From positions 248,001 through 312,000 of the forward strand of contig NZ_QBKI01000006.1 of the NCBI RefSeq assembly GCF_003054055.1: a stretch of DNA of 64,000 nt. The letters run 5' to 3'. Below are positions 42,879 through 56,593 of this stretch, one piece after another; positions within the stretch are counted from its first letter, which is position 1; each line of letters starts with the position of its first letter. The DNA is from Pontibacter mucosus (lineage in GTDB: Bacteria > Bacteroidota > Bacteroidia > Cytophagales > Hymenobacteraceae). The translations under genes were made by a program, and so were the position numbers. The notes beneath the pieces are model-generated. The model had not been told where the DNA came from, did no database searches, and was given only the letters and a program-made list of their open reading frames with translations.

Positions 42879-44348
42879 TCAGGCGTGTTTGTAAGAACGT
42901 ACGGAATGATAAAAAACGAGCAGGTACCCCACCGCCAGCATGCTGTGGAAAATGAGCATCACATACTCTCCTTGCACCACACTCCAGGTAGCTACAGCCA
43001 GGAACAAAAGCCCCAGCAAGCCCTCCAGATAAGTAGTAAGGGGCATTTTCAGGTGAAGGTAAAAGTTCTCCTGCCAGGTATGTTTTCGCGCCTCCAGGTT
43101 AAACTTCGGGGTGCGGATAAAAGGGGATTTGCGGCCGGTCCAGCCCTCCCACACCGCCACGGCATTGTGCAGCGCCATCCCCATCGACACCGACAGGAAC
43201 AACGGGTAGTACAGCACAAAGCCAACAACACGGTTCCTACCTGTGGCCTTGCCCAGGGCATCGGCCTGAAAGTATACCAGGCTGATCACCACAAAACTCA
43301 GCAACATCACCCTTGCTACCTCCAGAGCTTCAGGGGGCAACTGGTGGTTTACCTTCGCCCAGAGCAGCGGTATACTGGCCAGCGAGGCCAGCAGCACCGC
43401 CACAAATACGGCGCTATTGAGCAAGTGCGCCAACGCGTGGTACTTGGTTTTAGCAGATTTTCCGGAGTTTAACACAGAGCCCAAATGCTTTACAGCCACC
43501 TCTGCTCCGCCCTTGGTCCAGCGGAACTGCTGCGACTTCAGCGCGCTCATCACGGGCGGCAGCTCCGCCGGAGACTCCACCTCGGGCAAGTATAAAAACT
43601 GCCAACCCTTTAGCTGGGCGCGGTAGCTCAGGTCCAGGTCTTCGGTCAGGGTATCGTCCTGCCAGTTGCCGGCATCCAGAATGGTGGTTTTGCGCCACAC
43701 GCCGCCTGTACCGTTAAAGTTGATGAAGGCGTGCTGGCTGTTGCGGCCCACCTGCTCGATAAAGAAGTGCGCATCCAGGGCCAGGGCCTGCAGCCGGGTA
43801 AGGATGGAGTAATCCATATTCAGGTGCGTCCAGCGGGTTTGCACCATGCCCAGCTCGGCGTTGGAAAAGTATGGAATGGTCTGTTTCAGAAAGCCGGGTT
43901 GTGGGGTAAAGTCTGCATCAAAAATGGTGATAAACTCCCCTTGGGCTAGTTCCAGGCCATACTTCAGGGCGCCTGCCTTAAAGCCGCTGCGGTCGGGGCG
44001 GCGGATGTGCTGCAGGTTCAGGTGTGGGTACCGGGTAATCGTTTCCCGGATGATGTCCGTGGTCTCGTCGTCGCTGTCGTCGAGCAGCTGAATTTCCAAC
44101 TTGTCTGCAGGATAATCCAGGGCGGCCACGGCATCGATGAGGCGCTCCACCACATACTTTTCGTTGTACACCGGCAGCTGCACCGTTACCGGAGGCCATA
44201 CGTCTGGGGCAGGCGGCGCTGGCCTATTGCCCTGCTTGCGGACCTGCCGGAAGCGGTACAACAGGTGCGCCTGCGCGACGCTGTATAAAAGTATAAACAG
44301 CATGGCAAGCCCGTAAACCAGCAGGCAAAGTATAAGCAGTAGGTTCAT
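42879..44348 (-). CDS. Family 2 membrane glycosyltransferase (cellulose/mannan synthase-like)
   Basis: 489 residues with a hydrophobic N-terminus and four or five helices at the C-terminus. The processive GT2 motifs are all present: LLDDSDDET (88-96), DAD at 144-146, TED at 235-237 and QQFRW at 273-277. Such enzymes polymerise or transfer hexoses from nucleotide sugars across the inner membrane. No BcsB, alginate or exopolysaccharide export gene is adjacent, which argues for addition of sugar to a lipid or small acceptor. Its ATG overlaps the stop of the upstream ferredoxin gene by one base. Confidence 0.88.
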   Translation of the reverse strand: MNLLLILCLLVYGLAMLFILLYSVAQAHLLYRFRQVRKQGNRPAPPAPDVWPPVTVQLPVYNEKYVVERLIDAVAALDYPADKLEIQLLDDSDDETTDIIRETITRYPHLNLQHIRRPDRSGFKAGALKYGLELAQGEFITIFDADFTPQPGFLKQTIPYFSNAELGMVQTRWTHLNMDYSILTRLQALALDAHFFIEQVGRNSQHAFINFNGTGGVWRKTTILDAGNWQDDTLTEDLDLSYRAQLKGWQFLYLPEVESPAELPPVMSALKSQQFRWTKGGAEVAVKHLGSVLNSGKSAKTKYHALAHLLNSAVFVAVLLASLASIPLLWAKVNHQLPPEALEVARVMLLSFVVISLVYFQADALGKATGRNRVVGFVLYYPLFLSVSMGMALHNAVAVWEGWTGRKSPFIRTPKFNLEARKHTWQENFYLHLKMPLTTYLEGLLGLLFLAVATWSVVQGEYVMLIFHSMLAVGYLLVFYHSVRSYKHA

Positions 44349-45892
44349 TAATTCAGCACTTTGATGGATTCATTTCCGGTCAGGAAAGGAATGTCGGTGA
44401 TGCGGCCCTGCTCCGGCCCGTTTTCCAGTTTCAGGACACCACGGGGGCACACGCTGGCGCAAATACCGCAGCCCACACAGGAAGCCCGTACAATGTTTTG
44501 TCCCCGCTGCGCATACCAGCGCACATCAATGCCCATTTCGCAGTAGGTAGAGCAATTGCCGCAGGAGATGCACTGGCCCCCGTTGGTCGTGATGCGGAAC
44601 CTCGATTTATAGCGCTGCACGATACCGATGTAGGCGGCCAGCGGGCAGCCAAAACGGCACCACACGCGGTTGCCCATCAGCGGGTAAAAGCCCACACCCA
44701 CCACCCCGGCAAAGGCAGCCCCTATCAGGAAGCCGTACCACTGGTGCAGCATGTCAGTGGACTGCTTCAGAAGTGCAAATTCGGTAAAATAATTGGCAAT
44801 GGTCAGCAAGGTGATGACAGTGATGATAACAAGTATGGGGTACACCATCCAGCGTTCCACTTTCCAGGCTTTCAGGGACTTGTCGGAGAGGTGGCGGTAG
44901 GGGTCGCCGGCGGTTTCGGCCAGGCCGCCGCAGCCACACACCCAGCTGCAGTACCAGCGCTTGCCATAGAAATAGGTAAACAGCGGCACGGCCACTATAA
45001 TCAGGAGTATCCCCCAGATAAACAGGAACAGGCCCGCGCTGCCGCTGCCCAACATGCTGGCTACGCTATACTCAAAGAAAAAGTCGTAGTCGAGTGGCCA
45101 GATGTTTTTCAGGTCGTACCAGGGCAAATTCAGCACGACCAGTATCTCCGGAATCAGGAAAGCAAAGCTTAGCTGGAAAAACATCACCGAGGCGGTGCGC
45201 AGCAGCTGGTAGTTGTTGCCTTTATACTTGCGGAACATCCGCACGCCCATCACCAGAATAGCCAAGGTATAAATCGTACCATACAAAAACCACTGACTGG
45301 CCGGACCTCCGGACAAAGTATAACTTAGCGGGTCCACCAGCAGGGCCCAGTTCACGATATACTCCGGGTACCAGTAGAGCAGTACATAAATGGCGGTTAA
45401 GTACACGCCAATCGTTATCCCCACTACGCCACGTGATTTGTTTGAGGAGAACATGACGCCGTTATTCTTCACGCCGGCCGGCTCGCCCCGGTACTGCGGC
45501 AAGATGTAGAGCAGCGCGCCGGCTGCCCCCACTATAATCGTCAGGAAGAGCAAAAGGAGCTTGTTGTTCTCCACAAAGCCCTGACTGGCTACTCTGGCGA
45601 GAGCAAAGGCATAGTCGTCCCAGATGACGCGGTCCCACTGCTGGCTGCGCTGCTGCTCCTCATTGTAGTTATCCAGAAGGCGGTTAAAGTCGGTGGCGAA
45701 GCTGAAGCTGGACGAATAAGTTTCACCCAACATTGGCTGCAGCTCCTGCCGCAGCACCTCCACATGCTCTTGCTTCACCGACTCCTGCAGCTGCGCCTCC
45801 GTTAGCCGGAACTGCCCCATAAACAGCAATGCGTTAAAGAGCAGCAGCGCTAGCAGGAAAATACCCAAGCCTAATTTCTGTATCGCCTTCAT
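44348..45892 (-). CDS. NosR/NapH-like membrane 4Fe-4S protein
   Basis: 514 residues. An N-terminal helix (about 8-28) is followed by an extracytoplasmic segment and then five or more membrane helices. Cysteine clusters are YCSWVCGCGG near 318-327, VWCRFGCP near 418, and two ferredoxin-type motifs, CISCGNCSTYCE and CVGCGICASVCPRG, in the last 80 residues. The arrangement resembles NosR and NapH, which pass quinol-derived electrons across the membrane. No nos or nap genes are nearby. It follows the FAD oxidoreductase by eight bases, a likely electron partner. Confidence 0.85.
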   Translation of the reverse strand: MKAIQKLGLGIFLLALLLFNALLFMGQFRLTEAQLQESVKQEHVEVLRQELQPMLGETYSSSFSFATDFNRLLDNYNEEQQRSQQWDRVIWDDYAFALARVASQGFVENNKLLLLFLTIIVGAAGALLYILPQYRGEPAGVKNNGVMFSSNKSRGVVGITIGVYLTAIYVLLYWYPEYIVNWALLVDPLSYTLSGGPASQWFLYGTIYTLAILVMGVRMFRKYKGNNYQLLRTASVMFFQLSFAFLIPEILVVLNLPWYDLKNIWPLDYDFFFEYSVASMLGSGSAGLFLFIWGILLIIVAVPLFTYFYGKRWYCSWVCGCGGLAETAGDPYRHLSDKSLKAWKVERWMVYPILVIITVITLLTIANYFTEFALLKQSTDMLHQWYGFLIGAAFAGVVGVGFYPLMGNRVWCRFGCPLAAYIGIVQRYKSRFRITTNGGQCISCGNCSTYCEMGIDVRWYAQRGQNIVRASCVGCGICASVCPRGVLKLENGPEQGRITDIPFLTGNESIKVLN

Positions 45893-45900
45893 ACTTTAAT

Positions 45901-47286
45901 CTACCTCCAAAAGTAGGACAGCAGTCCTTTCTTTTCTTTCTTTTCCGGCTCCAGATTCGTGCCGAATTGCTCATTATAGGCCTGCAACATTTCGCGGTGA
46001 TGCCTGTCAGAAAACTCCGGGTCGAAGTTAGCCTGGTCTAGCTTTACCAGCACCTGTTCCACCGTCCAGTTTTCCCGCAGCGCCTGGTCGAAAAACTCGT
46101 GGCGCAGGCGCAGGCCCAGGCCGTTTACCCCGTGCAGGCGTTTATCTTCTCCATTAAACACAGCCCGGAAAGCGATTATACCGTCGGCATGCTCCCAATA
46201 AAACGAATCTACCGGCTGTTTCCAGCGGTTTGGTACCATGCCGTACGTCTGGTACTCGATGTCGAAGAACTTGGCCGAGTTGAACCAGGGACCGGGGTTA
46301 TACTTGACAGGCTGGTGCGTGAGGCTGTGGGCCAGTGTTTCGCCGTGCATGCGCCCGGTGTACCATACCTGTTCTATACTTTGGCGCTGCGGCACCGGCA
46401 CGCGGTACTCGGCACAGTCGCCAATGGCAAATACATTAGGGATATTGGTGGCAAAATGCTGGTCTACCAAAATGCCCCTGTTTACCACCAGCTCCGTGTT
46501 GCGCACCAGGTCGATGTTCGGCTGCACACCTACCGCCAGCCCCACAAACTGACAAGAAATCTCCTCTCCTGCCGTCGTCACTACCGCACTCACCCGACCA
46601 GTGCCATCATCGCGTATCTCTTTCAACTCAGTATTCAGCCGCAGGTCCACGTGGTGTTCGCGCAGGTGCCGCATCACCAAATCCGACTCTTCTTTGGGAA
46701 GTATACTTCGCCAGAAGCCCTCTTCCCGCACCAGAAAAGCGACTGGTATATTGCGGCTCAGCAGCATTTCGGTCATCTCCACTCCTATCAAACCACCCCC
46801 CACTACCACAGCGTGCTGGCAGTTAGCAGTGTTGTCGTTCATCATCTGCAAATCCTGGTACGAATACAGCCCCTGCACCCCCTGCAGCCCCTGTCCGGGC
46901 CAGTCAAACTTGTTGGGTTTCGAGCCCAGCGCCAGAATCAGAATATCATACGTGAGTGGCTCCTGTTGCTGTAGCTGCAGTTCCTTTTGCTCAAAGTTTA
47001 TACTTGTTACCCAGTCGTGCACGAGGTGGAGGCGGTTTTTCTCCCAGAACCAATCTTCATAAGGCTTGGTATGCGCATAGGTCATGTGGCCCATAAAGAT
47101 GTACATGAGCGCGGTGCGGGAGAAGAAATGCTCTGTTTCACCGGAGATGATAGTGATGTGTGCCTCGCTGTCGCGCTTGCGGATGTGGCGCGCGCAGGTG
47201 ATACCCGAAATGCCGTTGCCGATAATGACAATGCGGCGCCCCGGGGTCCGGATGCAAAAATCACCTGTTGCGTGTGGCTCTCTCAT
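45901..47286 (-). CDS. FAD/NAD(P)-dependent oxidoreductase
   Basis: 461 residues of the pyridine nucleotide-disulfide oxidoreductase class 1 fold. FAD loop VIIGNGISGITCARHI (20-35), second nucleotide loop VVVGGGLIGVEMTEML near 163-178, and the FAD-end motif PNVFAIGDCAEY near 300. It lacks the paired Cys of disulfide reductases and resembles NirB-type or rubredoxin reductase-type electron carriers. It is the first gene of the leftward operon, eight bases ahead of the NosR-like gene. Confidence 0.85.
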   Translation of the reverse strand: MREPHATGDFCIRTPGRRIVIIGNGISGITCARHIRKRDSEAHITIISGETEHFFSRTALMYIFMGHMTYAHTKPYEDWFWEKNRLHLVHDWVTSINFEQKELQLQQQEPLTYDILILALGSKPNKFDWPGQGLQGVQGLYSYQDLQMMNDNTANCQHAVVVGGGLIGVEMTEMLLSRNIPVAFLVREEGFWRSILPKEESDLVMRHLREHHVDLRLNTELKEIRDDGTGRVSAVVTTAGEEISCQFVGLAVGVQPNIDLVRNTELVVNRGILVDQHFATNIPNVFAIGDCAEYRVPVPQRQSIEQVWYTGRMHGETLAHSLTHQPVKYNPGPWFNSAKFFDIEYQTYGMVPNRWKQPVDSFYWEHADGIIAFRAVFNGEDKRLHGVNGLGLRLRHEFFDQALRENWTVEQVLVKLDQANFDPEFSDRHHREMLQAYNEQFGTNLEPEKKEKKGLLSYFWR

Positions 47287-47914: not shown

Positions 47915-48604
47915 TTGAAGTCTGCACACGCACATACCGCTGTTTTGCTGTTTACCCGTACCCCTTCCGAAGAGGCGCAGGTAAAACGCTTTTGCCACAA
48001 CCGTAGCAAAAGCGAAGCTATCGCAGCAAAGCTCATCGACCATACCCGGAAATTAGTGCAGCAGGCAGGGCTCCAACTGGTAATTATCGATTCTTCGCGG
48101 CAGCAAGGCCATACGTTTGGCGAGCGGCTGCACCATGCTTTCAGCCAGACTTTTGCACAAGGGTATGAGCAGATTATCTGTCTCGGTAACGATACGCCAG
48201 GCCTGACACCAGTCACATTACGTGCCGCAGCCGAAGCGCTGCAGGAACAGGATTTCGTGTTCGGGCAGGCAACAGACGGGGGTGTGTATTTGATGGGGAT
48301 GCACTGCCATACGTCGCCGCTACTGGATTTCTCGGCCATCTCCTGGAACACCTCGCTCGTATTTGAGGAGCTCTGCGAGCAAACAGCTGCAGCCACCACC
48401 GCTATACTTGCGCCCATACTTGCGGATGCCGACAATGCTGAGGACATCCTGGTGCTGAGTGTGCAGCATACCCTAGGCAAATTGGCCGCCTGGCTGCGTG
48501 AGCTGCTGTTTGCTGTCAGATTATTCTTTACAGCTTATACTTCCTGCACCCCACAAACCACACCTGTTGCCACCGGACTGCGTGGCCCGCCTGTTAGCTG
48601 TTAA
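47915..48604 (+). CDS. DUF2064/TIGR04282-type nucleotidyl- or glycosyltransferase-like protein
   Basis: 229 residues from a TTG start; no ATG fits. The family core is clear: AVLLFTRTPSEEAQVKRF near 9-26, CLGNDTPGLTPVTL near 89-102 (usual wording GsDcPgL) and ATDGGVYLMGM near 120-130. This is the rSAM/selenodomain-associated transferase family, often found beside radical SAM genes, as here. Its chemistry is not firmly known, and the arsenosugar label in databases is not supported by this context. The C-terminal 30 residues are unusual and Thr/Pro-rich. Confidence 0.75.
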   Translation: MKSAHAHTAVLLFTRTPSEEAQVKRFCHNRSKSEAIAAKLIDHTRKLVQQAGLQLVIIDSSRQQGHTFGERLHHAFSQTFAQGYEQIICLGNDTPGLTPVTLRAAAEALQEQDFVFGQATDGGVYLMGMHCHTSPLLDFSAISWNTSLVFEELCEQTAAATTAILAPILADADNAEDILVLSVQHTLGKLAAWLRELLFAVRLFFTAYTSCTPQTTPVATGLRGPPVSC

Positions 48605-54918: not shown

Positions 54919-55655
54919 TGCTGACCATCCAAAACTTACATAAAGCTTATCACACGCACACCGTCCTCGACCAGGTATCGCTGGAGCTGCCGCAGGGGCA
55001 GGTGCTGGCGGTGCTGGGCCGCTCGGGTTGCGGCAAAACCACCTTGCTCAAAGCCTTGGCCGGACTGCTGACGCCAGACGCCGGAAGTATAAACTGGGCC
55101 GGGCAAAGTATGGATGCCGTGCCGCCGCGCGAGCGGGAGATGGTATACCTATTCCAGGAGCCCCTGCTGTTTCCGCACCTCACAGTGTTTGAGAACATTG
55201 CCTATGGTTTGCGTGTTCGGAAAGAGGCGGAGACCCACGTGCAGCAGAAGGTAGCGCAAATGTTGCAGGAACTGGAGTTGCAGGAGCACGCGCAGAAAAA
55301 GCCCGCGCAACTGTCGGGCGGGCAGCGGCAGCGGGTGGCTTTTGGCCGCGCCATCATCTTTCTGCCGCGCGTGCTCTTGCTCGATGAGCCCTTTGCCAGC
55401 CTCGACGCCCAGACCCGCGCCACCATGCAGCGGCTGTTTCTGCGCCTGGCCCGAAAGTATGGCATTACCGCCCTGTTTGTGACGCACGACGTGAAGGAGT
55501 CGCTGCTCGTGGGCGATCGGTTTGCCTACATGGCGGCGGGCAAACTGCAGGTTTATACTTCCCGGGAGGCCTTCATCGCAGACCCGCAAACAGGAGTGCG
55601 CGACGAACTGGCCTTCTGGAGTGCGCTTGAACAGCAAACCCCTTATCAACCATGA
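54918..55655 (+). CDS. ABC transporter ATPase (YnjD-like)
   Basis: 245 residues. Walker A GRSGCGKTT near 34-42, Q-loop YLFQEPLLFPH near 76-86, signature LSGGQRQRVAFGRA near 130-143, Walker B VLLLDEPFASLD near 150-161, and H-loop FVTHDVKES near 184-192. It energises the two permeases. Its stop overlaps the radical SAM start (ATGA). Confidence 0.95.
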   Translation: MLTIQNLHKAYHTHTVLDQVSLELPQGQVLAVLGRSGCGKTTLLKALAGLLTPDAGSINWAGQSMDAVPPREREMVYLFQEPLLFPHLTVFENIAYGLRVRKEAETHVQQKVAQMLQELELQEHAQKKPAQLSGGQRQRVAFGRAIIFLPRVLLLDEPFASLDAQTRATMQRLFLRLARKYGITALFVTHDVKESLLVGDRFAYMAAGKLQVYTSREAFIADPQTGVRDELAFWSALEQQTPYQP

Positions 55656-56593
55656 CACAAGACTTCCACCATATCGAATCGGTTTACTGGGTGTTCACCC
55701 AGCTCTGCAACGACCACTGCGACCACTGCTATAACAATTCCGGTCCACACGGCGAGCGCATCTCGGAGGAGGAGTGCATGGCCATTATCGATAACCTGCC
55801 CCCGAGCATGGGGCGGCTTATACTATCCGGTGGAGAACCCCTGGCGGATAAAAAGCTGCTCTACGCCATCCTCGACCGCCTGCAGGAGCGCTACCAGGGC
55901 CGCGTGCAAATCATGCTACAAACCAACGGCGACCTGCTGAACGAGCAGATACTGGACACCCTGCTGGAAAAAGGCGTCACCCGCTTCGACATCTCCAGCA
56001 TTGACCGCTACCACAAACACGCCGGCGCCCGCCTGATGGAACTGGCCGAGATGTTCCATAGCCGCGGCGTGAACGGCGACGACAAAGACCCGCTCATCGA
56101 AAAAAGCACTTACATCACCAAACACAAAGCCAGCTGGGGCTACTGGGGAGCCACCATCGATATGTGGCTGGGCGGCAACTGGGCCCGCGGCCGCGCCTAC
56201 GAAAAAGGCATCTGGAAACAGGACCCAGAGCATAACTTCTGCGCTATCCTCTCCGGCGGCAAAGGCTTTCTGACCGGTGCCGATGACATCCCGCAGGAAA
56301 TCTCCATCCAGCTCTGGAAGATAAACCCCTGCTGCCCCGGCACCCGCATCCCACTCGGCGATGCCCGCACCGAAAAAGTGGCCGACGTGCTGCAGCGGGT
56401 GTCTAAATCGGAAATATGGCAGAAGATAAACGAAGGCAATCCCCTGGCTCTGGGCGAAAATATAGGCATATCCCAGGAGTACGCCCGCAAGCGGACAGCC
56501 CAGCTCAAGAACATCTGCCTCTGGTGCGATGAGTTTTTTGAGAAGCATTATCAGGGGGGGAAAGTGGAGCGCGGTTGTTGTGGGTGTAAGTAA
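55652..56593 (+). CDS. Radical SAM protein of unknown function
   Basis: 313 residues. The SAM-cleaving 4Fe-4S cluster binds C19, C23 and C26 in CNDHCDHC. The GGE motif LSGGEPLADKK is near residue 56. The C-terminal half is unusual: HKASWGYWGATIDMWLGGNW, NPCCPGTR, CLWCDEFF and a terminal CCGCK, enough cysteines for an auxiliary cluster, although the spacing is not a standard SPASM pattern. It does not match ArsS. Coupling to the ABC ATPase by ATGA means the enzyme is made with the importer, so the imported compound or a product of it is the likely substrate. Confidence 0.85.
   Translation: MTQDFHHIESVYWVFTQLCNDHCDHCYNNSGPHGERISEEECMAIIDNLPPSMGRLILSGGEPLADKKLLYAILDRLQERYQGRVQIMLQTNGDLLNEQILDTLLEKGVTRFDISSIDRYHKHAGARLMELAEMFHSRGVNGDDKDPLIEKSTYITKHKASWGYWGATIDMWLGGNWARGRAYEKGIWKQDPEHNFCAILSGGKGFLTGADDIPQEISIQLWKINPCCPGTRIPLGDARTEKVADVLQRVSKSEIWQKINEGNPLALGENIGISQEYARKRTAQLKNICLWCDEFFEKHYQGGKVERGCCGCK

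Follow-up and report, generated by a model that had tools for sequence, protein, structure and literature searches.

Our results support a model in which a radical SAM enzyme of Pontibacter mucosus acts on a compound that the importer of its own operon brings into the cell. A first-pass annotation of the sequence had suggested that the enzyme works on what is imported, and this is now well supported, if short of proof, by the co-inheritance of importer and enzyme and by the replacement of the enzyme, in related importer operons, by nucleoside-cleaving enzymes. In its full form, the model describes a radical SAM enzyme of the cytoplasm, equipped with a single auxiliary cluster of the twitch type, that would process a nucleoside-like compound by hydrogen abstraction, with C228 as hydrogen donor and a redox-neutral outcome. 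We place this combined proposal just short of an even chance, with the most doubt attached to the substrate class and the hydrogen-donor step. A search of the open-licence literature brought up no paper that we recognised as dealing with this enzyme together with this importer. Coordinates refer to the window, the whole stretch of 64,000 nucleotides that was analysed.

The radical SAM gene and its operon

Table 1. Genes of the radical SAM/importer operon and its upstream neighbours in the window
Feature	Coordinates	Strand	Basis
DUF2064 protein, 229 aa from TTG, true start uncertain	47915..48604	+	PF09837 86.5 bits, over cut-off
TonB-dependent outer-membrane receptor, 1020 aa	48689..51751	+	PF25183, PF00593, PF07715
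YnjB-type substrate-binding lipoprotein, 405 aa	52106..53323	+	NF008633/PRK11622 368.6 bits, cut-off 203
ABC importer permease 1, 292 aa	53286..54164	+	PF00528 46 bits, over cut-off
ABC importer permease 2, 253 aa	54157..54918	+	conserved place; weak PF00528, PhnV/sulfate-permease-like matches below cut-off
ABC importer ATPase, 245 aa	54918..55655	+	PF00005 131 bits
Radical SAM/twitch-type enzyme, 313 aa	55652..56593	+	motifs, conservation, predicted fold

The ATG start of the radical SAM gene overlaps the stop codon of the ATPase gene in an ATGA junction, as the first-pass annotation had noted. Among 47 loci in which both open reading frames were called, the spacing is exactly -4 in 13, and the two genes overlap to some extent in 21. 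Across residues 1-312, the enzyme is 96% identical to a protein of P. chinhatensis.

The binding lipoprotein exceeds the NF008633 cut-off and is thus a member of the YnjB-type importers. This NF008633/PRK11622 family is shared with E. coli YnjBCD, which has the same three-part layout as the window importer but which, to our knowledge, comes with neither a radical SAM enzyme nor a TonB receptor or phosphorylase. Among the best 25 of 208 NCBIfam matches of the ATPase, the relatives all fall below cut-off; they are transporters of the polyamine, aminoethylphosphonate, sulfate and similar types. An AlphaFold2 model of the binding protein, built from 36 alignment rows chosen for diversity among the collected loci, has a binding-protein fold (pLDDT 93) and matches many sugar, glycoside and other binders at tied Z scores of 27 to 29, and so singles out no ligand. 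The DUF2064 protein is a divergent relative of TIGR04282, scoring 103 bits against a cut-off of 134. Rfam gave no match at gathering score, and hence no riboswitch clue, in the window or in nine further loci.

Two other features of the region were observed. Divergently upstream of the operon (44348-47286, minus strand) lie a pyridine nucleotide-disulfide oxidoreductase-like gene and a gene for a NapH-like membrane protein, both below NCBIfam cut-offs. In addition, counting both strands of the whole window (1-64000), there are 174 copies of the heptamer AAGTATA, against 3.6 expected from shuffles and 7.3 under an order-2 Markov model. The copies lie within coding sequence in several frames, with none in the radical SAM gene. 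Enrichment extends to five other Pontibacter loci (22 to 44 per 17 kb) and not to nine loci of other genera; we describe the heptamer as an over-represented word.

Conserved cysteines and a predicted twitch domain

The enzyme belongs to the radical SAM superfamily, with a PF04055 score of 56.4 bits (cut-off 29.5) and a CxxxCxxC motif. Its cysteines are arranged as C19xxxC23xxC26, C197, C227C228, C289xxC292 and a terminal C309C310GC312K; the motifs listed in the first-pass annotation are all present, and Cys197 was absent from that list. Conservation was assessed in an alignment of 83 sequences, which includes the window's own and some near copies as well as three fragments that lack the N terminus. 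C19, C23 and C26 are invariant in all 80 sequences that reach that far, C197 in 82 of 82, and C227, C228, C289 and C292 in 83 of 83. All eight of these cysteines are also kept in two relatives with 29% identity (L016 and L017). Because they are invariant throughout the alignment and in these distant relatives, the CC and CxxC motifs are conserved far beyond chance.

The terminal cysteines behave differently. A terminal CxGC pattern is found in 6 of 80 loci, namely the window's own and five others from Pontibacter, and was not seen outside that genus, so that the CCGCK terminus is a genus-level trait. Residues 307-313 of the enzyme model have a pLDDT below 50 and are predicted to be disordered. 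The suggestion that CCGCK forms part of a second cluster is therefore rejected, since the tail is neither conserved nor ordered in the AlphaFold2 model, and we regard it as a probable accessory.

Placement in a family gave a mixed picture. The search against radical SAM subgroup profiles that had been proposed alongside the original observation assigned the enzyme to no NCBIfam subgroup: core-domain matches alone were obtained, and the best score was 45.7 bits against a model cut-off of 500 (among the best 25 of 62 families). No listed family scored higher, so the enzyme also falls short of the YydG/EpeE epimerase family TIGR04078 (cut-off 300 bits), and kinship to ArsS (TIGR04167) is rejected at 21.2 bits against a cut-off of 300. 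To this extent, the earlier statement that the cysteine pattern could not be assigned to SPASM, twitch or ArsS families stands, but it does not hold for twitch, given the cysteine order and a predicted fold that resembles EpeE and BtrN. The invariant C197, C227, C228, C289 and C292 correspond to the conserved cysteine set, ending in CxxC, of a C-terminal half-SPASM as found in Twitch/SPASM-type enzymes.

The AlphaFold2 model of the enzyme, based on 47 alignment rows chosen for diversity among the collected loci, has a pLDDT of 87.4 and a pTM of 0.89. Its best solved folds are EpeE (Z 17.5, 255 aligned residues, 3.5 A, spanning enzyme residues 1-304) and BtrN (Z 16.6, 220 aligned residues, 3.3 A, spanning residues 2-293), which we treat as tied at a Z gap of less than 1. 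BtrN, a twitch dehydrogenase, shares the twitch fold over these 220 residues; it has four twitch cysteines and an aminocyclitol substrate and is not known to have a CC pair or an associated importer, and the window enzyme differs from it in these respects. EpeE/YydG shares with the window enzyme a radical SAM core, a twitch domain and the cysteine order C..CC..CxxC, but acts on a peptide substrate and belongs to a RiPP operon. The order can be followed in the full sequence of a YydG/EpeE homologue from a Macrococcoides plasmid (C205, C221, C222, C288 and C291), and a profile alignment of the two families is confident over the core and hardly covers the twitch domain. Both the cysteine order and the modelled fold match a twitch domain with a single cluster.

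Five invariant cysteines are present where four are needed for an auxiliary cluster, and the CC order is as in the EpeE homologue, which at the sequence level would be consistent with a hydrogen-donor cysteine beside the cluster. In EpeE, Cys223 is the proposed hydrogen-atom donor, and the auxiliary cluster recycles the resulting thiyl radical (PMC8326336, PMC5682303). From the chain numbering and the homologue, we infer that Cys223 is likely the second cysteine of the CC pair.

Co-inheritance of enzyme and importer

We compared 79 radical SAM loci, the best matches listed for the enzyme, all near relatives with at least 49% identity. In 63 of the 79, the ATPase gene is found upstream in the same orientation, all four ABC parts are present in 60, and a TonB receptor stands upstream of the importer in 51. 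Five of the 16 loci without an ATPase end at a contig edge within 400 bases, leaving 11 loci with visible flanks in which the enzyme has no adjoining importer; seven of these belong to one clade. When eight genomes with importer-less loci were searched, six (G461, G469, G491, G494, G497 and G500) had no binding protein at E 1e-20.

The same association holds across genomes. Among 36 Pontibacter relatives, the binding protein is present in 5 of 5 with a full radical SAM gene and in 0 of 31 without, a count that leaves out three more genomes with weak core-domain matches alone. In a phylum sample of 395 genomes, the enzyme occurs in 9 (E <1e-20), the binding protein in 21 and both in 7 (Fisher 1e-8). 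Moreover, two distant genomes have an enzyme of 29% identity at the head of its own operon, together with a binding protein, a fused permease and an ATPase. Because enzymes this divergent sit in importer operons of their own, the link between enzyme and importer is old.

Plasmids yielded no match to the enzyme at 1e-10. One locus, L094, comes with a MAG (G489) labelled Gammaproteobacteria; since the enzyme was found in 1 of 249 genomes of the phylum of G489, namely G489 itself, L094 may be a misbinned contig. For L050, L082 and L107, record labels also name other groups.

Several neighbouring genes were observed in subsets of loci. Two adjacent genes, c6 and c7, encoding proteins of about 207 and 217 aa, each occur in 26 radical SAM loci (for example, L073:5983-7252); with one member of each searched, neither has a Pfam, NCBIfam or PDB match, and they represent orphan families that belong with this system. 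A gene for an SbtA-type bicarbonate transporter (Sbt_1, 380 bits; L121:7720-8667) directly precedes one of the distant radical SAM/importer operons, and in L122 a small gene that is PII-like by eye only stands between transporter gene and operon. In a Chlorobiales MAG (L111:6459-7892), a second radical SAM gene, distantly TrsS/Tes-like and below cut-off, and a TIGR04283 glycosyltransferase gene directly precede the enzyme.

Replacement of the enzyme in sister importer operons

The operon of the window itself contains no phosphorylase, hydrolase or kinase gene. A different arrangement emerged when importer loci without the enzyme were opened in 14 genomes of the phylum sample: in 12 of them, the ATPase is followed on the same strand by a gene for an MTAP-like phosphorylase (8 loci) or for a nucleoside hydrolase (4 loci), and in 9 of these 12 a kinase comes next, with methylthioribose kinase as its best family. 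As for the remaining two, L170 ends before that point, and L177 has neither phosphorylase nor hydrolase. The best families are MTAP (TIGR01694; three of the eight phosphorylases scanned) and MTRK (TIGR01767; six kinases scanned, with four of the nine from enzyme-less loci covered), and all scores are below cut-off. For the three phosphorylases, they range from 97 to 107 bits against 274.85, which places them outside MTAP proper.

No enzyme-bearing locus has an MTAP-like gene in its operon; a weak 24% match that lies on the opposite strand of L094, about 5 kb off, was not counted. Mixed arrangements do occur with the other genes: hydrolase, kinase and radical SAM enzyme are found together in L104 and L112, and kinase and radical SAM enzyme in L101. 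In L043, L079 and L086, the enzyme gene is followed by a PNP gene in the same orientation, and seven Haliscomenobacter-like loci, in which PNP lies some kb away on the other strand, were not counted among these.

A tree of the binding protein (79 rows, 76 distinct, including L121 and L122, in which the enzyme is upstream) requires 9 state changes in all; six involve the phosphorylase state, and at least four of these are forced by starred branches, the stars of this quick method being less trustworthy where rows are long. The phosphorylase locus L169 and the radical SAM locus L090 are sisters on this tree (98*). These state changes indicate that phosphorylase and radical SAM enzyme have been swapped repeatedly on one importer. 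The rows were gathered by two different searches, for near relatives of the enzyme (the best 80) and for the binding protein in the phylum sample, and frequencies are thus not comparable between the two sets. Accordingly, a Fisher test of exclusivity (0 of 65 versus 8 of 13) overstates independence. Nor does the exchange prove a shared substrate, because the specificity of the importer may shift along with the enzyme.

The replacing phosphorylases offer a clue to the base. A GHKYS motif is present in all eight MTAP-like proteins, and its HKYS aligns with T219-D220-Y221-D222 of human MTAP, so that K and S occupy the positions of D220 and D222, the Asp pair that binds adenine in MTAP. Because this pair is replaced, the base of the imported compound is probably not adenine. 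The MTAP-like proteins form a distinct clade with HKYS where MTAP has TDYD (L164:12605-13393 and seven other loci), known here through importer loci only.

A proposed function and its alternatives

Taken together, these observations suggest the following scheme. The importer, comprising TonB receptor, YnjB-type binding protein, two permeases and ATPase, would bring in a nucleoside or ribosyl compound. The cluster held by C19, C23 and C26 would generate a 5'-deoxyadenosyl radical, which may take a hydrogen atom from this compound. Four of C197, C227, C228, C289 and C292 are predicted to hold one auxiliary [4Fe-4S] cluster, and the cysteine left free, most likely C228, which would correspond to EpeE Cys223, could serve as hydrogen-atom donor. 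With C228 as a possible donor, redox-neutral chemistry is suggested, and the net reaction might be an epimerisation or fragmentation of the sugar or base. That the substrate is nucleoside-like is suggested by related importers that carry a nucleoside phosphorylase or hydrolase in place of the enzyme. A more specific version, in which the radical SAM enzyme achieves by radical chemistry what the phosphorylase or hydrolase does in sister operons, freeing or remodelling an imported modified nucleoside (with an unusual base or a 5-modified ribose, possibly an organoarsenical), strikes us as unlikely but worth stating.

Under an organoarsenical reading, the operon would import arsenosugars or 5'-arsenonucleosides, with the radical SAM enzyme making or breaking the 5-deoxy-5-arsinoylribose part. 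In L079 and in the near copies L082 and L088, ArsS adjoins the operon, and L079 has a single run of ArsS, DUF2064, TonB, importer, radical SAM, rhodanese, TIGR04282, PNP and methyltransferase genes. TIGR04169 is found in L082 and its copy L088 and TIGR04283 in L111, arsenite-methyltransferase-like genes below cut-off occur in L070 and L091, and a DUF2064 relative lies in 37 of the 79 radical SAM loci, as it does in 8 of the 14 importer loci without the enzyme. The system thus resembles the arsenosugar cluster (ArsS, ArsM, TIGR04282/04283, TIGR04169) in its DUF2064 kinship and in adjacency in a few genomes. However, ArsS does not track the enzyme: it is present in 12 of 50 genomes with the enzyme (covering 50 of the 80 loci), and in the phylum sample it occurs in 155 of 395 genomes, yet in 0 of the 9 with the enzyme. 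In the window's genome no ArsS exceeds the cut-off, the window's DUF2064 protein scores below the TIGR04282 cut-off, and the loss of the adenine-binding Asp pair in the exchanged phosphorylase speaks against adenosine. The adjacency is real in a few loci, and as a general function we reject an arsenosugar link; the organoarsenical reading as a whole is improbable.

We think it distinctly improbable, too, that the operon serves a queuosine-type salvage, in which a nucleoside would be imported, its base released and a radical SAM lyase employed, by analogy with QueK/QueL of C. difficile. Both systems share the logic of an importer combined with a nucleoside hydrolase and a radical SAM enzyme to salvage a nucleoside, but the importer is of the ECF type in C. 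difficile (PMC11130926, PMC11570991). In the window's genome, TGT is present and QueC gives no match at E 1e-20, a pattern that would fit salvage, but neither gene discriminates genomes with the enzyme: TGT was found in 50 of 50 genomes tested, QueC is missing from most Pontibacter with or without the operon and therefore does not track it, and QueC is present in enzyme-bearing G331, G339, G336, G328 and G446. Going by their descriptions, the matches listed for the enzyme include no entry named as a queuine lyase or as QueL.

Little credence is due to a role in salvaging 5'-methylthioadenosine or 5'-deoxyadenosine in which the radical SAM enzyme would be a side module. Such salvage would account for MTAP and MTRK as the best families of the alternative module, and bacteria are known to use exogenous 5'-deoxynucleosides. 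Those matches are all far below cut-off, however, both Asp residues at the MTAP adenine site are replaced, and MtnA occurs in 3 of 49 genomes tested, none with the radical SAM enzyme, so that an MTA/DHAP shunt is rejected. Finally, a peptide or protein maturase (epimerase) that merely shares an operon with a transporter is very unlikely, even though the best structural match, EpeE, is an epipeptide epimerase that acts on a peptide and has the same cysteine order, because the transporter, with its binding protein and TonB receptor, serves import, and no maturation or export cluster recurs among open reading frames of at least 70 aa around the gene, a size below which precursor genes would escape.

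Implications

Under the preferred model, in which the enzyme processes a nucleoside-like compound delivered by its own importer, an uncharacterised radical SAM family gains a testable setting: one importer with three exchangeable processing modules. The model also suggests the class of compound that orphan YnjB-type importers may carry. If the radical enzyme truly stands in for a phosphorylase, it would add a new route for opening or remodelling nucleosides.
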